Below are positions 8,639-64,000 of a DNA stretch of 64,000 nt, piece by piece. The stretch lies in assembly GCF_006376685.1 (NCBI RefSeq), contig NZ_VEWL01000013.1:1-64000 (forward strand), read 5' to 3'. The DNA comes from Ochrobactrum teleogrylli (GTDB lineage Bacteria; Pseudomonadota; Alphaproteobacteria; Rhizobiales; Rhizobiaceae). A model generated the notes under the pieces. The model was not told the origin of the DNA and did no database searches. It was given only the letters and a program-made list of their open reading frames with translations. The stretch's first letter is position 1. Each line of letters starts with the position of its first letter. A program made the translations under genes and the position numbers.

Positions 8639-9322
8639 CTACATCGATTCGCGTACGCGCTCCCATGCATTGGTCAAATGGCGGCCCAATACTTCGGACA
8701 ACCGGGTCGCGTTACGGGCTTCCAGAGCCTCGATCATTTCTTCATGCTCCGATACAGCCGCCGCCCATTTCTCGGCGCCTTCATGGCCGACGAAACGGAT
8801 CCGTTTCAATCGTGTCTGCAGCATTTGGTGAACGTCTGCCAGCGTAGGGTTCTTGGCAAGACGAACAATAGCGATATGAATCTGCTGGTTCAGTTTGTAA
8901 TATTGCAGCCGGTCAGCGGTTCGGTAGCGCTTGATCATTTCATCGTGCAGCGAACGAACCTCAGCAACTTCCTTGTCGGTTGCGAGCTCGCAGGCGAGTT
9001 TGCCTGCTAGCTCTTCCAGGGTACGTAGGACGGTGAGCATGTCCTTGACATCAGCTGCGCTGAACCGTTTCACAACTGCGCCGCGGCTTGGAACAAGCTC
9101 GACTAGTCCTTCGCTGGCCAGATATTTGATAGCCTCACGCAGCGGTGTGCGGGACACGCCGAGCTGCTCTCCGAGCTGCCCTTCATGCAGGCGCGTGCCG
9201 GGCTCCAGCTGTCCTTCAATGATCATGTCGCGCAGATGGTTGACAAGCATATCGTGCAAAGCCGTGCGGCGGAACGATTGTGTGCCGTGTTCGGCTTGCT
9301 CGGTTTTCTGATTTTCGTCCAT
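8639..9322 (-). CDS. GntR-family (FCD/FadR subgroup) transcriptional regulator
   Basis: This 227-residue regulator has an N-terminal winged helix (LHDMLVNHLRDMIIEGQLEPGTRL, then EQLGVSRTPLREAIKYLASEGLVEL) at about residues 20-85. An all-helical FCD ligand domain follows, with the metal-site pattern around LNQQIHIAIVRLA and SEHEEMIEALEAR. I chose the ATG at 9322; a longer frame to 9643 runs through the promoter region. It is divergent from the PdxA2-like gene. Two copies of a 12-base motif in the shared upstream region suggest it represses the rightward catabolic operon and is released by a pathway metabolite. Confidence 0.85.
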   Translation of the reverse strand: MDENQKTEQAEHGTQSFRRTALHDMLVNHLRDMIIEGQLEPGTRLHEGQLGEQLGVSRTPLREAIKYLASEGLVELVPSRGAVVKRFSAADVKDMLTVLRTLEELAGKLACELATDKEVAEVRSLHDEMIKRYRTADRLQYYKLNQQIHIAIVRLAKNPTLADVHQMLQTRLKRIRFVGHEGAEKWAAAVSEHEEMIEALEARNATRLSEVLGRHLTNAWERVRESM

Positions 9323-9413
9323 CGGCCTTTTTCTCAAAGGGTGAGCCCGAATCCTTACCTCACCGTTCGAGGTGAAGATGGCTGGCCTGCTCTCAACCGT
9401 CAATATAAAATGC

Positions 9414-9478
9414 TGCATACAGAATACAAAATACTTGCGTCGCGCTGAGACCTGCCATATGCATATTGCATACAGAAT
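9414..9478. promoter_or_regulatory. Candidate GntR operators (repeated TGCATACAGAAT)
   Basis: The 12-mer TGCATACAGAAT occurs at 9414-9425 and 9467-9478, 53 bases apart, in the same orientation. The second copy abuts a perfect palindrome ATATGCATAT at 9457-9466. Both lie between the divergent GntR and PdxA2-like genes. FCD-type GntR proteins commonly bind sites of the form TTGTATACAA, which these resemble. Assignment to this regulator is inference from position. Confidence 0.5.
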
Positions 9479-9497
9479 GCAGACGAGGAGGATACGA

Positions 9498-10529
9498 ATG
9501 ACCGCTAATGGCGCTGAACCGAGCGTGATTGCGCTTGCAATGGGGGATCCAGCCGGTGTCAGTCCCGAGCTGACAGCACGTCTCCTCGCTTTGCCCGATG
9601 TCAGAAAGGAAGCGCATCTCATCGTGTTTGGTGATCGCCGCATTCTGGACGAAGGTGCGCATATTGCGGGTGTTGAGCTTGATCTTCAGGAATCCACTCT
9701 CGAAAATGCACCGAACATGCCGGTCGGCAAGCACGTCTTCATTGACTTGAGGAATCTCGATCCGAAGGATGTTGTGCGCAGTGAAGCCACGCTGGTCGGG
9801 GGAACTTTTGCAACCCAGAACTTTCGTACTGCATTGGAATTTGCCGATGCCGGGCATGCGCAGGCTGTTTGCTTTACGCCGTTCAACAAGCAGGCCATGC
9901 GGTTCGCCTATCCAGGTTATGACGACGAAATCCGCTTTGTTGCCGATGTGCTGGGTTTCAAAGGCAAGGTGCGTGAGTTCAATGTTCTGGAGAAAGTCTG
10001 GAACGCACGCGTGACGTCGCATATTCCACTCAAGGATGTAGCTGCGACCTTGACTGTTGAAGGAATTCTCGCCGAGCTGGAACTGGCCTGGTTTTGCTTG
10101 AAGAAGGCGGGATATGACAATCCGAAGATCGCAGTGGCCGGACTCAATCCGCATGCCGGTGATGGCGGCAGCTTTGGTATGGAAGAAATTGACATCATTG
10201 AGCCTGCAGTCAAGGCGGCGAACGCCAAGGGGTTCGATGTCGATGGTCCATTTCCGGCTGACACAGTATTTCTGCGCGCGCTGAAGGATGGCTTTCAGGC
10301 GGTGCTGACCATGTATCACGATCAGGGGCAGATCGCGATGAAGCTGATGGGCTTCGACAAAGGTGTGACAATGATGGGCGGATTGCCCTTCCCCCTTTGC
10401 ACTCCTGCTCACGGCACTGCCTACGATATTGCCGGGAAGGGCGTCGCCGACGTGGGGGCCACGCGCGAAGCGATCCTGCTCGCGGCACGAATGGCGAAAA
10501 GAGCAGCTGCACTTTCAGACGCGGCCTGA
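9498..10529 (+). CDS. pdxA2: PdxA2-like 4-phospho-hydroxyacid dehydrogenase
   Basis: This 343-residue protein belongs to the PdxA family. It has AMGDPAGVSPE at residues 14-24, NPHAGDGGSFG and MYHDQGQIAMK, which carry metal and phosphate ligands, and AHGTAYDIAGKG near the C-terminus. The last motif is of the PdxA2 catabolic type rather than the 'VDHGTALDLAG' of vitamin B6 PdxA. PdxA2 enzymes oxidise 4-phospho-D-erythronate or threonate, and decarboxylation to DHAP follows. The gene opens an operon with a TTT transporter, an isomerase and a DhaKL kinase, so a sugar-acid catabolic role is likely. The ATG at 9498 follows a good ribosome site (gaggagg). Confidence 0.8.
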   Translation: MTANGAEPSVIALAMGDPAGVSPELTARLLALPDVRKEAHLIVFGDRRILDEGAHIAGVELDLQESTLENAPNMPVGKHVFIDLRNLDPKDVVRSEATLVGGTFATQNFRTALEFADAGHAQAVCFTPFNKQAMRFAYPGYDDEIRFVADVLGFKGKVREFNVLEKVWNARVTSHIPLKDVAATLTVEGILAELELAWFCLKKAGYDNPKIAVAGLNPHAGDGGSFGMEEIDIIEPAVKAANAKGFDVDGPFPADTVFLRALKDGFQAVLTMYHDQGQIAMKLMGFDKGVTMMGGLPFPLCTPAHGTAYDIAGKGVADVGATREAILLAARMAKRAAALSDAA

Positions 10530-10594
10530 TTTTCGACATTTTGACACTATCGGCATGGGGGGAGGCCTGTGCCGCTTAACTGGGAGGATGGACC

Positions 10595-11584
10595 ATGAAG
10601 AAGTCTTTGCATATCGCGTGCCTGGCGGCAGGTGTGGCAATAATCGCATCATCTGCTTTGGCATTCGAGCCGACACGGCCCGTGGAGTTTGTCGTGACCG
10701 CCGGACCGGGCGGCGGCACGGATATTTTTGCGCGTACGATCCAGTCTATCATCGGTAAATATGATCTGATGAGCGCGCCAATCGTTGTCACAAACAAAGG
10801 CAGCGCAGGCGGAGCGGAAGGCTTTGTCTATACTGCTGGCTATAAGGGCGATCCTTACAAGCTCGCATTCGGAACCAACAACGCCTACCTTCTGCCAGTG
10901 CGCGCCAAAGTTCCTTATAAATCGACAGATTTGCTCCCCGTCTCGGCGCTTGCTTCGGATGAATTCATTCTTTGGGTCAATGGAAAGTCCGACTTCAAGA
11001 CAGCCGCAGAGTTTATCGCCAAGGCGAAAGATGATGCGGGCATGAAGATTGGCGGCAGCCAGTCCAAGGACGTTGACCAGATTCTGACATCCATGATCAA
11101 CGATGCCACGGGCTCAAAGCTTGGCTATATCCCGTTCAAAAGCGGTGGCGAAGCCGCCGTTCAGCTTGCGGGCGAGCATATCGCGGCCAATGTCAACAAT
11201 CCGAGTGAGAACCTCGGTCAATGGCAGGCGGGTATGGTGAAGCCACTTTGTGTTTTCAAGGGAGAAAAGCTCAAGGGTGACGGCAAGGTTGCTGGCGACA
11301 TGGGTTGGAGCGACATCCCGACCTGCAAGGAAGCAGGAATTACAATCGAAAATTACTCCATGCCACGCACCGTATGGCTTCCAGCCGGCGTCGATCAGGA
11401 CGTCGTCGATTACTATGCAGGCGTACTCAAGAAGGTTGCAGAGACACCTGAATGGGCGAAGTATCTTGCCGATAGTTCGCAATCTTCCGCCTATATGAGC
11501 GGTGGTGAACTCGCATCCTTTATCAAGAACGATGAAACAGCGGTAACAGCCGTGCTCAAGCGTGAAGGCTGGCTCGCCAACTGA
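10595..11584 (+). CDS. TTT transporter periplasmic binding protein (TctC family)
   Basis: This 329-residue protein starts with a signal peptide (MKKSLHIACLAAGVAIIASS, then ALA|FEP). The Bug/TctC fold follows, with RPVEFVVTAGPGGGTDIFAR, IVVTNKGSAGGAEG and GYIPFKSGGEAAVQLAG. It delivers a small carboxylate to the TctAB membrane pair, powered by an ion gradient. An aggagg-type ribosome site precedes the ATG. The ligand is presumably a sugar acid or related carboxylate used by the PdxA2/DhaKL enzymes, not necessarily citrate. Confidence 0.85.
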   Translation: MKKSLHIACLAAGVAIIASSALAFEPTRPVEFVVTAGPGGGTDIFARTIQSIIGKYDLMSAPIVVTNKGSAGGAEGFVYTAGYKGDPYKLAFGTNNAYLLPVRAKVPYKSTDLLPVSALASDEFILWVNGKSDFKTAAEFIAKAKDDAGMKIGGSQSKDVDQILTSMINDATGSKLGYIPFKSGGEAAVQLAGEHIAANVNNPSENLGQWQAGMVKPLCVFKGEKLKGDGKVAGDMGWSDIPTCKEAGITIENYSMPRTVWLPAGVDQDVVDYYAGVLKKVAETPEWAKYLADSSQSSAYMSGGELASFIKNDETAVTAVLKREGWLAN

Positions 11585-56491: not shown

Positions 56492-56562
56492 TGCAACTCA
56501 AGCTCTCTGTTCACGCAGAAGTAAAAATGGCGCTTCCTGGAGTGCCAAGCTTTTATCTATGA
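56491..56562 (+). pseudogene. Truncated ParE toxin remnant
   Basis: The ATG overlapping the parD stop opens a frame of only 23 codons (MQLKLSVHAEVKMALPGVPS, then FYL and stop). The first ten residues fit the beginning of ParE/RelE proteins (typically 'L.LS..A..DL'). The remaining 80 or so residues are absent, and the adjacent convergent response-regulator gene begins its 3' end at 56553. A deletion appears to have removed the toxin. Confidence 0.6.
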
Positions 56563-57467
56563 AGAACGATGGTAGCCTTCACAGCTGCTGCCGCACGGTT
56601 CTCGACCCCAAGTTTAATATAGATTTGCTCCAGATGTTTGTTCACAGTGCGAGCGCTCAGGTCGAGAATAGTGCCGATGTCACGATTTGTTTTTCCATGG
56701 GCTACCCAAAGTAAAACATCGCTTTCTCGCGCCGTCAGGCCAAAGTGACGGCGTAGCATGTCCTGTTCGCCGTTTTCGCTGATCGCAGTCAGCCGGAACA
56801 AAAACTCATTGGGACCGGTCGAACCGAGATGCGCCAGTTGCAGGGATATCTGCCCGTTGGTCGTGACGAATTCCGGGCTATCATTGGAGATTCCTTGTCG
56901 GTCCCGTGCCCGTAGCAACTCGGCGCATTTTTGCTGCAAAAGCAGCTGGCCGTTCCCATTCTCACTGGCACTATCCATCAGGCGCATCGCCTGCGGCGTG
57001 GACCAGAGAATGGCGCCGTCACGGTCCACCGCAAACAGATGTCTGCCACTGGCGTCGAGCGCGACGCGGGCACTCTGCACGGAGCGGGCATTGGTGAGAT
57101 GCACCCTTATGCGCGCCCGCAGCTCATCAATATTGATGGGCTTGGTCAAATAGTCGACACCGCCCGCTTCCAGCGCATGGACGATATGTTCAGTTTCTGT
57201 CAGGCCGGTCATGAATACGATGGGCACCTGCGAGATGGCTGGATTTGCCTTGAGCCGGCGGCAGGTCTCGAACCCGTCCATTCCGGGCATAATTGCATCC
57301 ATCAGGATCATGTCCGGTGTGATACGTTCAGCAATGCCAAGCGCAGCGCTGCCGGATGTTGCGATCAGCACGGAGTAGCCAGCCTGTTCCAGCGCTTCGG
57401 TCAGGAAGCCGAGCGTCTGCGGAGAATCGTCAACGATAAGAACCGTGTCGCGGGGAAGAACGCTCAT
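56553..57467 (-). CDS. LuxR/NarL-type response regulator
   Basis: This 304-residue protein has an N-terminal receiver (VLIVDDSPQTLGFLTEALEQAG, phospho-Asp in MILMDAIMPGMDG, Lys in YLTKPINI). A middle PAS-like segment follows (RHLFAVDRDGAILWSTPQAMRLM), and the C-terminal HTH is of LuxR type (FGLTARESDVLLWVAHGKTNRDIGTILDLSARTVNKHLEQIYIKLGV). Its start overlaps the stop of the transporter-kinase gene as ATGA, so it is the cognate partner. It probably controls the divergent urt operon or related nitrogen genes, which is inferred from position. Confidence 0.87.
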   Translation of the reverse strand: MSVLPRDTVLIVDDSPQTLGFLTEALEQAGYSVLIATSGSAALGIAERITPDMILMDAIMPGMDGFETCRRLKANPAISQVPIVFMTGLTETEHIVHALEAGGVDYLTKPINIDELRARIRVHLTNARSVQSARVALDASGRHLFAVDRDGAILWSTPQAMRLMDSASENGNGQLLLQQKCAELLRARDRQGISNDSPEFVTTNGQISLQLAHLGSTGPNEFLFRLTAISENGEQDMLRRHFGLTARESDVLLWVAHGKTNRDIGTILDLSARTVNKHLEQIYIKLGVENRAAAAVKATIVLHR

Positions 57468-60400
57468 GGCCGGTTATCCATTTTCTGTTCCAGATTGCGC
57501 AAGAACATATCGTAGCCCGACATGTTGAAGGCGCGTATATATTCGCGCGCGTTGTCGACGAAGGGTTGAAGGTGTTCATCCTGCGCCAGAAGGGCGAGCT
57601 TGGCTTCGATGCCGCGAACATAGCCGATCTCCCCCAAACGGATCAGTTCCTGCAAATCGGCAATCGCGGGGCTGTTGATGCTTGTAGCGCGCGACTGCGG
57701 TTTTTTTTCCTGGTTCTCTTCGTAAACCCAGTCGATACCCAGATGCACCGCCAGTTTGGCGTGAATCTGCCGGATATCGAATGGTTTCGTCAGCGTGTCG
57801 TTATGCGCATTGTCCGGCAGGCTGTCGGGCCGGGTGCCGTCGCCGATATTGGCCGAGAGCATGATGATCGGCGCACTCTCGCCTTTCTCGCGCAGGCGGG
57901 TCACCAGTTCCCAGCCATTCATCTGCGGCATTCGGATGTCGATAAAATAGAGGTCGGGACGAATACCTTCGATCAGTGTCAGGCATTCCGTTCCGCTTTT
58001 GGCAGTCAGTACGATGAAATCAAGCGGCGTCAGGATTTCACGCATCAGCGCGCAATGATCGTCATTGTCGTCCACCACAATGAGGGTGCGCCGCGGGCCG
58101 GTATAGTTCTGGATTTTTCGCGTCGGTGCGGCCAGATTGATCGGGCGGTCGATGGCGCCCAGCATCAATCGAACCTGAAATGTGGACCCCTTGCCATAGG
58201 CGCTGGTGACGGAAAGCTCACCGCCAAGCGTATTGGTCAGGAGTTTGGTGATGGTCAGGCCGAGACCGAGGCCCGGCAGATGGCGGGTATGTTCGGCCTC
58301 GCCGCGCTGGAAGGGTTCGAAAACGCGCTCAAGGTCCTTGTCCGCAATGCCGCGTCCGGTATCCATGATCCTGAAGGTGGCGACCTGATTGCGATAGGCA
58401 ATCTCCAACGCGACTTCCCCTTTCTCGGTGAACTTGATCGCATTGGTGAGCAGATTGACTAGAATCTGACGCAGGCGCTTTTCGTCAGTGCGCACATATT
58501 GCGGCAGCGCTTCGGCCTTGCGGTAGTGGAAATTTATGCCCTTGGCTTCGGCCTGCGGCTTCAACATGTCGATGATCTGGTCGAGAAAATCATGCAGATT
58601 GATTTCGTTGGAATAGACCTGCAAATGGCCGGTTTCGATTTTGGATATATCGAGAAGCCCGTCGATAAGGCCCGAAAGGTGATCGGCGCTGCGGCGGATC
58701 AGCTTGATCGAAGGCTGCCGGGCTGGGGGAATCGTTTCATCGCGCTCCAATATCTGCGCGTAACCCAGCACCGCGTTGAGCGGTGTCCGCAATTCGTGGC
58801 TGAGGCCAACGACATAGCGGCTTTTGGCGCGATTGGCGGCTTCCGCATTGTCCTTGGCCTGTTGCAGCGCCGCGTCGGTTCTTTTGTGTGCGGAGATTTC
58901 CTTTAAAAGAAGTGCGGTCTGTCGCGAGGATTCCTCTTCCGCAACGATGCGGCTGTCATGCGCCAACACATAGAACCAGCAGACTATGACGGCGATCAGC
59001 GCCAGAACAAAAAAAACGATCAGGATCGTGCGATTGACGACCTGCGCAGTTTCCGGCGATGCCGCGCCCGCATGATAGGCGACGAGCGCAAGGATGGTAG
59101 CGAGAAATGCCATGGAAACCGCAACCGTCACGGCATAGCGCCCGAGCCGCGTCGAAAGCTTTTCGATGACGGCGGCGGGCAGCAGCGCATTGGCTACTTT
59201 GGCGCTTTGGGCGCGCAGATGCGCTTTCGGTTTGCAAAGATCGTGGCAGCGGCTGTCGAGCGAACAGCACAGCGAGCAGATCGGGGCCGCATAGGCCGGA
59301 CACCAGGCCATGTCCTCCGGCTCGAAATCATGCTCGCAGACCGAACAGGTGATAGCGAGCTTGCTTTGCCAGCTTTGGCGGGGCTTGCGGGCGAGGTAAT
59401 ATTTGCCGCCTGTTTTCCACGCGATCAGCGGTGAAACGATGAAGGCCACCAGAAGCGCGATGAAAGGCGCAAGCGCTGCGGCCATGGTGCCAAACGCCCC
59501 GAAATGGGCGGCCAATGCCGCGAATGATGCAATGGCCATGGTGCCGGTGCCAACCGGGTTGATGTCATAGAGATGAGCGCGTTTGAATTCGATACCGGGC
59601 GGCGACAGGCCAAGACGTTTGTTGATGAAGAGATCGGCGGAAATCGTGGAAAGCCAGGCCATGGCAACGATGGAGAAGACGCCGAGCGTCTGTTCCAGCA
59701 CCTTGTAAATGCCAAGCTGCATCAGAAGAAGGCCGATACACACATTGAACACTAGCCAGACGACGCGCCCGGGATGACTGTGCGTCAGGCGGGAAAAGAA
59801 GTTAGACCACGCCAGCGATCCGGCATAGGCGTTCATGACGTTGATCTTTAGTTGCGAGACCACGACGAAGGCGACGGTCAACAGCAAGGCCGCCGTATGG
59901 GACGGGATCATATAGCCGAAAGCCGTCAGATACATATGCGCCGGATCAGCTGCGACATCGGCGGGAACACCGGCGCTCAGTGTCAGTACGACCAGAAACG
60001 ATCCGGCCAGCAGTTTGGGCGCGCCGAGCACGACCCAGCCGGGACCGGCGAGAAAGACCGCGATCTTGTGCCGCCATTTGCGTTGGCCTTCAGGGGGAAG
60101 AAAGCGCAGGAAATCGACCTGTTCGCCGATCTGCGCCATCAGTGCCAGAATGACTGCCGAAGCGGCGCCGAACTGCGCCAGCACGAAGGGCGCGCTGTCG
60201 CCGCCGGTAAATCCAGCCTGAACGCCGGAGAAGGTCAGCCAGAGGTCGAACTTTCCCCAGTCTGCCAGTGCGATGAAGATGAAGGGCAGAATATTGAGCG
60301 CGATCCAGAAGGGCTGGGTTGCAATCTGAAAGCGGCTGATCATACGCACGCCATAGGTGACGAGCGGTATCACCACGACGGCGCTGATGACATAGCCGAT

Positions 60401-60850
60401 CCACATCGGGATGCCGAAGGCCAGTTCCAGAGCGCCCGACATGATGGAAGCTTCGATGGCGAAGAGCAGGAAGGTGAAGGTCGCGTAGATGAGCGAGGTG
60501 ACGGTCGATCCGATATAGCCAAAACTCGCGCCGCGTGTCAGAAGGTCGATGTCGACGCCGTGGCGTATGGCATAGCGGCTGATCGGCAGGCCGACCGCCA
60601 GCATGACGAGGCTTGCGACAATGATGGCGGCTATGGCGTTGCTGGTGCCGTAGGATAGCGTGATCGCGCCGCCGATGGCTTCGAGCGCGAGGAAGGAAAT
60701 CGCGCCGATGGCGGTATGGGCAATGCGATTGGACGAAAAGCGGCGCGCGCTTTTCGCGGTGAAGCGCAGCGCGTAATCTTCCAGCGTTTCATCCGCGACC
60801 CAGCGGTTATATTCCCGTCGGACCGGGATGATGCGTTGCCGCGCTGCCAT
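57464..60850 (-). CDS. NCS1 transporter-like sensor fused to hybrid histidine kinase and receiver
   Basis: This 1128-residue protein opens with an NCS1 nucleobase/allantoin-type transporter (about 1-490: FSSNRIAHTAIGAISFLALEA, FNVCIGLLLMQLG). A cytoplasmic cluster of eight Cys (502-539, CSVC...CSLCC...CHDLC) and two more membrane helices (about 570-640) come next. A coiled coil then leads to HisKA (HELRTPLNAVLGYAQIL, His 685) and an ATPase (LLTNAIKF, DTGRGI, GLGLGLTI). The receiver follows (Asp 971 in FIDIRMPQMNG), and an alpha-helical tail ends the protein. I start at the ATG at 60850 after ggagc, since upstream frame is antisense to urtA. It likely senses urea, purine or a related nitrogen source. 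The closest known design is CbrA, whose transporter part is SLC5-like. Confidence 0.85.
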   Translation of the reverse strand: MAARQRIIPVRREYNRWVADETLEDYALRFTAKSARRFSSNRIAHTAIGAISFLALEAIGGAITLSYGTSNAIAAIIVASLVMLAVGLPISRYAIRHGVDIDLLTRGASFGYIGSTVTSLIYATFTFLLFAIEASIMSGALELAFGIPMWIGYVISAVVVIPLVTYGVRMISRFQIATQPFWIALNILPFIFIALADWGKFDLWLTFSGVQAGFTGGDSAPFVLAQFGAASAVILALMAQIGEQVDFLRFLPPEGQRKWRHKIAVFLAGPGWVVLGAPKLLAGSFLVVLTLSAGVPADVAADPAHMYLTAFGYMIPSHTAALLLTVAFVVVSQLKINVMNAYAGSLAWSNFFSRLTHSHPGRVVWLVFNVCIGLLLMQLGIYKVLEQTLGVFSIVAMAWLSTISADLFINKRLGLSPPGIEFKRAHLYDINPVGTGTMAIASFAALAAHFGAFGTMAAALAPFIALLVAFIVSPLIAWKTGGKYYLARKPRQSWQSKLAITCSVCEHDFEPEDMAWCPAYAAPICSLCCSLDSRCHDLCKPKAHLRAQSAKVANALLPAAVIEKLSTRLGRYAVTVAVSMAFLATILALVAYHAGAASPETAQVVNRTILIVFFVLALIAVIVCWFYVLAHDSRIVAEEESSRQTALLLKEISAHKRTDAALQQAKDNAEAANRAKSRYVVGLSHELRTPLNAVLGYAQILERDETIPPARQPSIKLIRRSADHLSGLIDGLLDISKIETGHLQVYSNEINLHDFLDQIIDMLKPQAEAKGINFHYRKAEALPQYVRTDEKRLRQILVNLLTNAIKFTEKGEVALEIAYRNQVATFRIMDTGRGIADKDLERVFEPFQRGEAEHTRHLPGLGLGLTITKLLTNTLGGELSVTSAYGKGSTFQVRLMLGAIDRPINLAAPTRKIQNYTGPRRTLIVVDDNDDHCALMREILTPLDFIVLTAKSGTECLTLIEGIRPDLYFIDIRMPQMNGWELVTRLREKGESAPIIMLSANIGDGTRPDSLPDNAHNDTLTKPFDIRQIHAKLAVHLGIDWVYEENQEKKPQSRATSINSPAIADLQELIRLGEIGYVRGIEAKLALLAQDEHLQPFVDNAREYIRAFNMSGYDMFLRNLEQKMDNRP

Positions 60851-60916: not shown

Positions 60917-60968
60917 CATGCATCGTGCTAATGCATGTTTCACCCCGGTAACTACGTCATTTAACGTA
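60917..60968. promoter_or_regulatory. Inverted repeats in the kinase-urtA divergent region
   Basis: CATGCAT-(7)-ATGCATG at 60917-60937 is a perfect inverted repeat. TACGT-(6)-ACGTA at 60953-60968 is a second. They sit between the divergent transporter-kinase gene (start 60850) and urtA (start 61046). The TAC-rich second repeat is in the style of NarL/LuxR-type sites. They are candidate targets of the encoded response regulator. Confidence 0.45.
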
Positions 60969-61045: not shown

Positions 61046-62341
61046 ATGACATTCCGGTCGCAGATGCTTGCCGCACTTTTTGCAAGCGCGCTCACCATCC
61101 CTAGCCTTTCTGGCGCACTCGCCGAAGAAGACACGATCAAGGTCGGTATTCTCCATTCGCTGTCGGGCACGATGGCGATCTCGGAAACGACGCTCAAGGA
61201 CGCCATGCTGATGCTCATAGAAGAGCAGAACAAGAAGGGCGGCCTTCTGGGCAAGAAGCTCGAGGCTGTCGTCGTCGATCCGGCTTCGGACTGGCCGCTT
61301 TTCGCGGAAAAGGCCCGCCAGCTCATTTCCCAGGACAAGGTCGCGGCCGTGTTCGGCTGCTGGACCTCGGTGTCGCGCAAATCGGTCCTGCCGGTCTTCA
61401 AGGAACTGAACAATATCCTGTTCTATCCGGTGCAATATGAAGGCGAGGAATCCGAGCGCAACGTGTTCTATACCGGTGCGGCGCCCAACCAGCAGGCCAT
61501 ACCCGCTGTCGATTACCTGATGGAAAACGAAGGCGTCGAACGCTGGGTTCTGGAAGGCACCGACTATGTCTATCCGCGCACGACCAACAAGATTCTGGAA
61601 GCCTATCTGCTGTCCAAGGGCGTGAAGCCGGAGGACATCCGCGTCAACTACACGCCGTTCGGTTTCTCCGACTGGCAGACGGAAGTGGCGGCGATCAAGG
61701 GTTTTGGCGGTGCAGGCAAGAAGACCGCCGTGGTTTCGACCGTCAATGGCGATGCCAATGTGCCGTTCTATAAGGAACTCGCCAATCAGGGCGTGAAGGC
61801 GGAAGATATCCCGGTCGTGGCCTTCTCGGTCGGTGAGGAAGAACTGGCCGGTATCGACACCGCGCCGCTGGTCGGCCATCTCGCAGCCTGGAACTATTTC
61901 CAATCCGTCGATAATCCGACCAACGCCAAGTTCATTGAAACCTGGCGCGCTTATACCAAGGACGACAAGCGCGTCACCAACGATCCGATGGAAGCATCGT
62001 TCATCGGTTTCAACATGTGGCTGAAGGCCGTCGAAAAGGCCGGAACCACGGATCAGGATGCGGTGATCGACGCGCTGGTCGGCGTTTCCGTACCTAATCT
62101 TTCGGGTGGCTATTCGACCATGATGCCGAACCATCACATCACCAAGCCGGTGCTGATCGGCGAAATCCAGTCCAACGGTCAGTTTGAAATCGTCAGCCAG
62201 ACGCCGGGCCTGATCGTCGGTGACGAATGGTCCGATTATCTGCCGGATTCCAAGAACCTGATCTCCGATTGGCGCAAGCCGATGTCCTGCGGCAACTTTA
62301 ACGTCGAAACGGGCAAGTGCGGCGGTCAGGGCGGCTCCTGA
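61046..62341 (+). CDS. urtA: Urea ABC transporter substrate-binding protein
   Basis: This 431-residue periplasmic protein has a signal peptide (LAALFASALTIPSLSGALA). The UrtA pattern follows: IKVGILHSLSGTMAISETTLKDA, FGCWTSVSRKSVLPVFKELNNILFYPVQYEG, LEGTDYVYPRTTNKILEAYL and MEASFIGFNMW. This is the leucine-binding fold adapted to urea or short amides, and these motifs separate it from amino-acid receptors. An agagaggga site precedes the ATG. It heads the urt operon. Confidence 0.95.
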   Translation: MTFRSQMLAALFASALTIPSLSGALAEEDTIKVGILHSLSGTMAISETTLKDAMLMLIEEQNKKGGLLGKKLEAVVVDPASDWPLFAEKARQLISQDKVAAVFGCWTSVSRKSVLPVFKELNNILFYPVQYEGEESERNVFYTGAAPNQQAIPAVDYLMENEGVERWVLEGTDYVYPRTTNKILEAYLLSKGVKPEDIRVNYTPFGFSDWQTEVAAIKGFGGAGKKTAVVSTVNGDANVPFYKELANQGVKAEDIPVVAFSVGEEELAGIDTAPLVGHLAAWNYFQSVDNPTNAKFIETWRAYTKDDKRVTNDPMEASFIGFNMWLKAVEKAGTTDQDAVIDALVGVSVPNLSGGYSTMMPNHHITKPVLIGEIQSNGQFEIVSQTPGLIVGDEWSDYLPDSKNLISDWRKPMSCGNFNVETGKCGGQGGS

Positions 62342-62587: not shown

Positions 62588-64000
62588 ATGGAGCGCCGGA
62601 TACGGGCCGTCTTGCTCGTCCTGTCCGTCCTGTTTGCCGTGCTGGCGACGACAGCCCGGGCGGATGAATTTCAGGGGCTTGTCGATGCGTTGGGCAAGGC
62701 GAATTTTGCCCAGATGCAGGAACGAATTTCCGCGCTTGCGGGTACCGGCGACACGCGCGTCGTGCCTGTGCTGAACGCGCTTGGCGATGGCGATCTTTAT
62801 GCACGCAAGTCGGATGGTCGCGTCTTCATCACGAAAGCATCCGGCGCTAATTTCCAGCTTACCGATCCTGTCAGCGGAGAGGCGACGGGTGAAGCGCCCA
62901 AAGCCGCGATGGACAAGGTCAAGGTCAACAATTCCGTCCGCCGCGCGGTTCGCACGGCCTTGGGCGGTCTCACGCTGATGAGCCCCAACCGGGCCGAACG
63001 GCTGAAGGCTGCGGAGATCGTTGCCGCAAGCGCCGATGCGGATGCGCTTGAGCCGATCGAGGCGGCACTGGCCAAGGAACAGGACGACGCGATCCGCGCC
63101 CTTCTGGAAAAGGCGCAGGCTGCGGCGCTGCTGGCATCGGACCGTCCGGTTGCCAACAAGCTCAAGGCGACGCAGTTTCTTCAGAACAATGGCGATCGTT
63201 CCACTTTGTCGGTTTTGAATGCCGCCCGCGCCAATGCGCAGCCAGAGCTTGCCGCCGCGCTCGATACAGCCATCGTTCATATCGAACAAAGGCAGGCTTT
63301 CTGGGACGCCGGGCAGAATGTCTGGTACGGGCTGTCGCTCGGCTCCGTCCTGCTGCTTGCGGCCATCGGCCTTGCCATTACCTTCGGCGTCATGGGCATC
63401 ATCAACATGGCGCATGGCGAAATGGTCATGCTGGGCGCCTATGTCACTTTCATGGTGCAGGAGGTCATCCGCACCAGCTATCCCGGCCTGTTCGACTGGT
63501 CGCTGGCCATCGCCCTGCCTTTGGCGTTCCTGTTTACCGCGCTGGTCGGTCTGGTGATCGAGCGCGGCGTCATCCGCTTTCTCTATGGTCGTCCGCTGGA
63601 AACATTGCTGGCGACATGGGGCATTTCGCTCATCCTGCAACAGGCTGTGCGCTCGGTGTTCGGGCCGACCAACCGTGAAGTCGGCAATCCCTCCTGGATG
63701 TCGGGTGCTTTCGAACTCGGCGGCATGACCGTGACCTGGAACCGCCTGTGGATTATCGTGTTTTCGCTGGCCGTGTTTTTCACGCTGCTGGCCGTCTTGA
63801 AGCGGTCGAACTTCGGCCTGCAAATGCGCGCCGTCACGCAGAACCGCCGCATGGCGTCGTCAATGGGCATTCGCACGCCTTATGTCGATGCTTTCACCTT
63901 TGCGCTCGGTTCCGGTATTGCCGGCATGGCGGGCGTGGCCCTGTCGCAGATCGATAATGTGTCGCCCAATCTCGGGCAGGGTTATATCATCGACAGCTTC
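62588..64000 (+). CDS. urtB: Urea ABC transporter permease UrtB (3' end outside window)
   Basis: The frame starts at the ATG at 62588 and stays open for 471 codons to the window edge, so it is partial. A signal-like N-terminus (LLVLSVLFAVLATTARA) leads to an extracytoplasmic domain of about 200 residues, characteristic of UrtB. The LivH-like permease follows from about residue 245 (GLSLGSVLLLAAIGLAITFGVMGIINMAHGEMVMLGAY), with ERGVIRFLYGRPLETLLATWGISLILQQ and NRRMASSMGI. It forms the urea channel with UrtC. Confidence 0.93.
   Translation, partial: MERRIRAVLLVLSVLFAVLATTARADEFQGLVDALGKANFAQMQERISALAGTGDTRVVPVLNALGDGDLYARKSDGRVFITKASGANFQLTDPVSGEATGEAPKAAMDKVKVNNSVRRAVRTALGGLTLMSPNRAERLKAAEIVAASADADALEPIEAALAKEQDDAIRALLEKAQAAALLASDRPVANKLKATQFLQNNGDRSTLSVLNAARANAQPELAAALDTAIVHIEQRQAFWDAGQNVWYGLSLGSVLLLAAIGLAITFGVMGIINMAHGEMVMLGAYVTFMVQEVIRTSYPGLFDWSLAIALPLAFLFTALVGLVIERGVIRFLYGRPLETLLATWGISLILQQAVRSVFGPTNREVGNPSWMSGAFELGGMTVTWNRLWIIVFSLAVFFTLLAVLKRSNFGLQMRAVTQNRRMASSMGIRTPYVDAFTFALGSGIAGMAGVALSQIDNVSPNLGQGYIIDSF

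Follow-up and report, generated by a model that had tools for sequence, protein, structure and literature searches.

A permease-fused hybrid histidine kinase divergent from urtABCDE in Ochrobactrum teleogrylli is a probable sensor of urea and short-chain amides

A 64,000-nt stretch of the genome of Ochrobactrum teleogrylli (contig NZ_VEWL01000013.1, positions 1 to 64,000; hereafter the window) encodes a hybrid sensor histidine kinase of 1128 residues whose N-terminal half resembles a permease of the NCS1 family. The kinase is encoded together with a LuxR-type response regulator and is divergent from urtABCDE, the operon of a urea importer. We read the locus as a transceptor-type two-component system, a urea or short-chain amide sensor for its divergent operon, with a probability of roughly 0.75. 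Urea itself is quite probably the ligand in this strain, while formamide or acetamide is probably the ligand in relatives whose putative operator controls a Urt-like ATP-binding cassette (ABC) transporter and formamidase. Urea is a major nitrogen source, and to our knowledge no bacterial membrane sensor for it is known. Our searches of the open-access literature turned up neither an NCS1-kinase fusion nor a urea sensor kinase.

The Kinase and Its Regulator

An earlier note made from the letters of the window had described a transporter-shaped sensor kinase tied functionally to urt and sensing nutrient nitrogen, and the present analysis came to the same description. Its coordinates for a single 1128-residue protein with HisKA, ATPase and receiver domains were reproduced by the open reading frames (ORFs) and the Pfam domain search (Table 1). 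The kinase and regulator genes are both on the minus strand and overlap by 4 nt. With HisKA, HATPase_c and a receiver and its catalytic residues in place, the first protein is a hybrid histidine kinase, and the second, with a receiver plus GerE, is a regulator of the LuxR/NarL type. The divergent gene was called as UrtA by TIGR03407 (552 bits vs. a cut-off of 492.75), and the ORFs downstream of it, which extend beyond the window, were named urtBCDE by their position and later use in tblastn.

The closest named relatives of the kinase were Brucella/Ochrobactrum records with 92–94% identity. An alignment of 102 fused sequences, the window protein included (49 at 85% non-redundancy), ruled out a chance or assembly fusion of permease and kinase. 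The phospho-acceptor His685 and the ATPase residues N799, N803, D830, G832, G834, G860, G862, and G864 were present in all 102 sequences. The receiver Asp971 was Asp in 100 of the 102, which include two receiver-less variants, and D57 of the regulator was found in 54/54 aligned rows.

Gene Neighborhoods and Distribution

Two sets of related loci were compared. Set A comprised all 51 loci from named records with the permease half, two of them on short contigs. Set B comprised 52 of the 72 fused places from the class and phylum genome searches (own genome excluded), which were hand-picked for spread; the 20 places left out were mostly close relatives. For set B, ORFs were called with a crude script, and the counts of FmdA, AmiE, and urease were taken again with tblastn. 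On representatives, NCBIfam and Pfam gave the identities of FmdA, FmdB, aliphatic amidase, allophanate hydrolase, and the subunits and accessory proteins of urease.

UrtA-like, formamidase or urease genes were carried by 97 of the 103 related loci. In set A, a regulator was present in all 51 loci and a UrtA-like gene, within the stretch examined, in 48, the rest being the two short contigs (L006 and L046) and L043. The UrtA-like gene was divergent from the kinase in 48/48 cases, within 400 bp in 39, and at least 60% identical in 47. In set B, 49 of 52 loci had at least one of UrtA-like, FmdA, AmiE, and urease, and a regulator-like match was found in all 52 (in L163 and L164, just about 115–120 residues at 34% identity). 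Among the 10 loci with UrtA at 60% identity or more, six had urease and none had FmdA. The 30 loci with a UrtA-like protein of 30–60% identity carried FmdA in 29 cases and AmiE in 12, and the 12 loci without UrtA carried urease (7), FmdA (2) or none of these genes (3).

On a tree of the permease half, the five context labels changed 11 times, compared with a shuffled mean of 26.2. The context is clustered, yet several switches have taken place among urt, Fmd-ABC, and urease, as expected if one chemistry, urea and its close amides, is sensed throughout. The Fmd-linked ABC transporter was argued in 2010 to move formamide or acetamide in Bradyrhizobium (passages of PMC3098086). In passages of a 2026 genome paper (PMC13296017), a LuxR-family regulator accompanies a second urtABCDE operon; the legend of a figure there lists "HK," a hybrid kinase, and "rcsC," a regulator, and the locus number of fmdA (ACMHYQ_02750) is next to 02755–02785. 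These passages make no mention of a permease domain.

Genomes with a match, the window's own genome included, amounted to 12 of 60 relatives (half-length query), 20 of 289 in the class, and 57 of 398 in the phylum, where at least five (G365, G406, G520, G561, and G610) were fragments or weak. The G365 match (24.5 bits), which by eye we take to be an alanine:sodium-type carrier, was not counted as a member of the family, since it appears to be an unrelated transporter. A plasmid search with the permease half alone gave 537 records, 342 of them from Klebsiella; many are near copies, and the counts reflect sampling. Outside Pseudomonadota, only a free Streptomyces permease was seen, and other phyla were not searched.

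Some variants were recorded along the way. The Klebsiella plasmid sensors are annotated as "ATP-binding protein" or "ArcB," and in one such record (L261) the sensor adjoins urtABCDE and formamidase. L163 and L164 encode a receiver-less form of 894–899 residues, which adjoins a separate receiver-kinase protein, FmdA, an AmiS/UreI channel, and FmdB. In L195 (G610, about 8842–10713), a 623-residue kinase has a degenerate form of the cysteine box described below, and no permease remains in the frames read.

A Putative Operator Between the Divergent Genes

Upstream regions were tried for 105 loci (104 loci and the window), and 80 were retained after those without a start motif or with too short a sequence had been dropped. 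In an inverted-repeat scan of these regions, TACGT-N6-ACGTA ranked first. The dyad was perfect in 48 of the 80 regions and had at most one mismatch in 57, while Markov-shuffled copies gave means of 0.0 perfect dyads and 0.3 with one mismatch. The copy in the window is the sole perfect dyad in its 4.76-Mb genome, compared with three copies of the reversed control pattern, and its exact 16 bases recur between urtA and the kinase on a Klebsiella plasmid, where the permease of the kinase is about 53% identical.

Of the 33 perfect sites in 23 kinase-bearing genomes, 22 were no more than 12.5 kb from a kinase and 17 no more than 600 bp, and 11 genomes lacking the kinase had two perfect sites in all. 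Six of the 23 had no perfect site nearby, and the control pattern was often equally frequent genome-wide. In six loci (L017, L021, L027, L031, L038, and L093), urtA is 2–3 kb away from the kinase, and there the dyad lies about 90–100 bp before urtA and not at the kinase. One of these, L093, is the locus of the Sinorhizobium meliloti pSym plasmid, on which kinase, regulator, dyad, and urtA are all present. Moreover, L165, L170, L173, L174, and L175 have a second perfect dyad near FmdA, either at its called start or about 100 bp ahead of it. In L155 and L156, a perfect dyad precedes a porin-like gene, and another dyad, with one mismatch, stands between the regulator gene and an allophanate hydrolase gene; a wider urea regulon is possible in these two loci. 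These sites suggest that TACGT-N6-ACGTA is likely the operator. In addition, a perfect dyad at 4639971 in G570 lies within a called ORF, with no gene assigned to it. In G628, one of the 20 places left out of set B, urtA is divergent but lies beyond genes for a LysR protein and a carrier, and a one-mismatch dyad precedes it.

The Permease Half Is Related to NCS1

The N-terminal half had been described as a full NCS1 permease, and this claim stood in terms of fold and profile but not in terms of sequence searches. Residues 1 to about 570 gave no sequence match in Pfam, NCBIfam (searched with residues 1–560) or the PDB. PF02133 was absent from the families listed for the window protein and for each of 21 relatives (E ≤ 10, HMMER filters on), and likewise from those listed for a free permease of Moraxella. 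In the PDB sequence searches, the distant free permease of L167 gave two chance matches, and a 56-residue NCS1 piece led nowhere.

On the other side, an AlphaFold model of residues 1–670 was built from 21 sequences with a mean pLDDT (predicted local distance difference test) of 74.9 and a pTM (predicted template modeling score) of 0.72. Its five top PDB matches in Foldseek were Mhp1 and CodB with E from 1.2e-8 (2jln) to 6.5e-7, and 7qoa_A had a TM-score (template modeling score) of 0.76 over the target. Because SGLT2 came next at 3.2e-6, a modest margin, the fold alone leaves other LeuT families possible. In profile comparison by hhalign, the fused family matched five NCS1 proteins with 97.1% probability (E 6e-11), whereas the control, eight SLC5 proteins, gave 0.3%, and an SLC5 origin was rejected on that result. 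The fused family also matched the permease of L167 with 99.9% probability (E 1.1e-32), and this protein exceeds the PF02133 cut-off (35.9 vs. 23.5 bits). Pfam found no SSF (SLC5) domain in the kinase, and PF00474 had no match across its own genome. No STAC match was obtained in the Pfam scan of the kinase, the presence of a STAC model in Pfam being unconfirmed. The fold model and the profile comparison support a place for the permease half beside NCS1; we call it NCS1-related, and not a member of NCS1, because Pfam PF02133 does not match it.

Free-Standing Relatives Sit With Urease and Formamidase

The relatives of the permease half include proteins without a kinase. The one from Moraxella, which came out of the plasmid search with the permease half and is annotated as "allantoin permease," is divergent from fmdA, with fmdB next, and its use as a query yielded those of Acinetobacter, Klebsiella, and Streptomyces. 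On three Acinetobacter plasmids (L293/L296/L297:4959–6566), the permease heads urease clusters under the name "allantoin permease" or "hypothetical protein." In Klebsiella pneumoniae NZ_CP129771.1 (L294:5989–7596), a "cytosine permease" directly follows ureG in a urease cluster, and the flanks of this record (tsaD, rpsU, dnaG, and rpoD) look chromosomal. Five of the six free loci examined sit with urease or formamidase. The free permeases are 40–43% identical to the window protein (40–41% to its permease half for those of Moraxella, Acinetobacter, and Klebsiella) and share Gln240, Glu243, Gln244, Asp246, Lys335, Asn337, and Asn340 with the sensors. In the tree, they group in one branch apart from 23 fused rows (100/100); the root carries a long-branch warning. 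The "cytosine/allantoin permeases" of urease clusters are therefore candidates for unrecognized urea permeases. A search of E. coli with the Klebsiella permease gave matches in 4 of 5426 genomes, each just a 60-base piece inside a hybrid kinase.

Since the free permeases sit with urease or formamidase, the substrate is more consistent with urea or short amides than with purines. The earlier note had left urea, purines, and allantoin open as ligands; of these, urea fits the context, purines and allantoin do not, and short-chain amides have to be added. A permease half that senses purines, allantoin or hydantoin, with urt as one target of a wider purine-nitrogen response, would agree with hydantoin and cytosine transporters as the top fold matches and with the database names of the free relatives. 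However, it is very improbable given the genes beside those same relatives, the loss of a key residue of the hydantoin site (below), and the neighbor clusters scanned, among which no purine or allantoin genes were seen in a scan that left out single-locus ORFs and was not a full search. A purine or allantoin ligand was thus rejected as the first choice on the gene contexts.

L167:7784–9442 is the distant free NCS1 permease used above. It adjoins a two-domain nitrilase, an AmiC-like binding protein, and an AmiR-like ANTAR protein, and is another amide-linked permease.

Predicted Pocket and Sensor-Specific Residues

According to passages of PMC4195764, hydantoin is held in Mhp1 through stacking on Trp117 and through hydrogen bonds from Asn318 and Gln121. 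In the alignment, Trp117 corresponds to residue 129 (Leu129 in the window; Leu in 54 and Phe in 48 of the 102 sequences), Gln121 to the invariant Glu133 (102/102), and Asn318 to an Ala with an Asn one place away. The conservation of NCS1 substrate-site residues, whose absence was one half of the refuting condition in the earlier note, was therefore not found. Ser312 and Thr313, which we take to be the residues of the Mhp1 sodium site, align with Lys335 (102/102) and Ile336 (101/102). The polar residues Gln240, Glu243, Gln244, Asp246, Arg249, Asn337, Asn340, and Tyr342 are invariant in the 102 sequences, as are Lys335 and Glu57 in transmembrane helix 1 (TM1). Judged from this alignment, the Mhp1-type nucleobase/hydantoin site with its aromatic ring clamp appears to be lost, and another invariant polar set appears to be kept.

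Glu57 sets the sensors apart, as Phe occupies this position in the five free permeases compared (two of them identical) and in L167. These residues bear on a second alternative, in which transport continues in the domain and the kinase responds to flux or transporter turnover, a possibility discussed for CbrA, and not to ligand binding alone. The NCS1-like fold is intact in the model, the free relatives are presumably transporters, and CbrA transports histidine according to passages of PMC7096432 and PMC13022988. Nevertheless, all five free relatives have Phe where the sensors have Glu57, and an invariant Lys335 occupies the Mhp1 sodium-site position in the alignment; both could mark a loss or change of transport, comparable to the loss that occurred in Amt5 (passages of PMC5764959). 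We consider continued transport with flux sensing rather unlikely. In a CbrA cryo-EM preprint (passages of PMC13022988), the sodium site of that proton-driven sensor is reported to be filled by the side chain of a lysine, and the parallel with Lys335 is suggestive only.

The Cysteine Box

Between permease and kinase, residues 502–539 form a cysteine box with the spacing C-x2-C-x11-C-x7-C-x2-C-C-x5-C-x3-C, and all eight cysteines are found in 102/102 fused sequences. In Foldseek, a separate model of the box (pLDDT 78.7) gave no match at E ≤ 0.001, with weak RING/PHD/FYVE-like matches only (best E 0.28). The box is probably metal-binding, and two metal sites are plausible. The free permeases keep cysteines 502, 505, 525, and 528 and lack Cys529, Cys535, and Cys539, while Cys517 occurs in that of Streptomyces only. 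Since four of the eight cysteines are shared, one four-Cys set goes with the permease and the other with the sensor.

A box of this kind might itself be the true sensor of zinc, redox or nitric oxide, with a permease that merely anchors or modulates. Its full conservation and the metal dependence of urease and some amidases are in line with this idea. We regard it as improbable, because the target genes follow urea and amide use and not metal or redox genes, the free permeases have half of the box as well, and the permease pocket is equally invariant.

Proposed Mechanism

In the transceptor reading, the NCS1-related permease domain would bind the nutrient in the membrane, and the signal would pass through the Cys-rich box and the helical pair to the kinase. 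The kinase would then autophosphorylate at His685. From the conserved residues and the gene order, the phosphate may reach the LuxR-type regulator directly or via the receiver of the kinase itself. The regulator would bind TACGT-N6-ACGTA between the divergent genes, as the conservation of this site suggests, and would activate urtABCDE, perhaps along with its own operon. That it activates and does not repress is our guess from the gene layout.

Several results weigh against this reading. No urea or amide gene was found in six of the 103 loci: two are the short contigs L006 and L046, and four (L043 and L151–L153) are not short. The 48 perfect dyads were made up of 40 from set A, which is largely rhizobial, seven from set B, and the window, so that relatives dominate the count; only 7/30 set B regions were perfect, and several others had TACGC/GCGTA-like variants. 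Nine urease-linked loci had little urt or none in the stretch examined, and eight of them (L172, L181, L184, L185, L190, L191, L193, and L194) showed no dyad with zero or one mismatch; their kinases may therefore use another site. The two urease gene sets of the window's own genome were both without the dyad. Finally, the free permease of the soil organism Streptomyces chartreusis is un-annotated and had no match to seven urease/amidase queries within 13.6 kb.

A broader proposal extends to the whole family, and we give it an even chance. It holds that there is an unrecognized NCS1-like branch for urea and formamide whose free members, in urease and formamidase loci, are misnamed as "cytosine" and "allantoin" permeases, and that one branch of it turned into a sensor by gaining a kinase, a TM1 Phe-to-Glu change, and four further metal ligands as a second set. 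The product would be a urea/amide transceptor with an operator code common to alpha-, beta-, and gamma-proteobacteria.

Comparison With Known Systems

As the earlier note had anticipated, the protein is built on the plan of CbrA, here with another permease and linker. Like the SLC5/STAC kinases CbrA, CrbS/MxtR, and RpuS, it joins a whole LeuT-fold transporter to a histidine kinase, and passages of PMC9100948 and PMC7918813 describe CrbS and RpuS as hybrid kinases paired with LuxR-type regulators. Unlike these, it has a permease of a different family and a Cys box with a helix pair in place of STAC and PAS, and it is linked to nitrogen compounds, and not to acetate, pyruvate or histidine. The ammonium transporter-histidine kinase Ks-Amt5 is likewise a small-nitrogen uptake protein reused as a sensor, but it has the Amt fold and no known regulator, and passages of PMC5764959 describe no receiver. 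Mhp1 and CodB are similar in fold and profile; unlike them, the protein has no Pfam NCS1 match, and by alignment it does not keep Trp117, Gln121, and the sodium-site residues of Mhp1. The free "cytosine/allantoin permeases" are similar in identity, polar residues, and four cysteines; they differ in having no kinase, no Cys529, Cys535 or Cys539, and Phe instead of Glu at position 57.

If the reading is true, hundreds of proteins named "ATP-binding protein," "ArcB," "cytosine permease" or "allantoin permease" gain a function. Sensor and transporter would form a natural pair, 40–46% identical and with few distinguishing residues, in which the change from transporter to receptor is directly testable, and the operator would be a ready reporter.

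Features of the Window

Table 1. Positions of the kinase, its parts, and the adjacent genes in the window.
Feature	Coordinates	Strand	Size or basis
Hybrid sensor histidine kinase, NCS1-like permease as input	57464..60850	-	1128 aa
Permease-like domain, residues about 22–490	59381..60787	-	AlphaFold model, Foldseek, hhalign
Cys box, residues 502–539	59234..59347	-	8 cysteines, conservation alignment
Two long helices, residues 568–657	58880..59149	-	Secondary structure of the model
HisKA, residues 676–741, phospho-acceptor His685	58628..58825	-	Pfam E 4.5e-16
HATPase_c, residues 788–896	58163..58489	-	Pfam E 7.3e-26
Receiver (Response_reg), residues 924–1033, Asp971	57752..58081	-	Pfam E 2.3e-22
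LuxR-type response regulator, 304 aa, Asp57	56553..57467	-	Pfam Response_reg and GerE
Putative operator dyad TACGTCATTTAACGTA	60953..60968	.	Upstream-region scans, genome scans
urtA, predicted target gene	61046..62341	+	TIGR03407
urtB by position, first part	62588..64000	+	ORF; the operon runs past the window end

The two long helices are read here as a putative membrane pair and a signaling helix leading to HisKA. A Pfam match to DUF6526 at residues 578–655 was below the cut-off (20.3 vs. 23.7 bits) and was not used. The middle of the regulator, residues about 137–234, had only a weak PAS_4 match in Pfam (E 0.15). For the kinase tail after the receiver, residues about 1061–1117 (57464–57660), no family match was reported, and it is not an obvious histidine phosphotransfer (HPt) domain. 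This tail is conserved and helical, with Gly1076 and Leu1069 each present in 100 of the 102 sequences.

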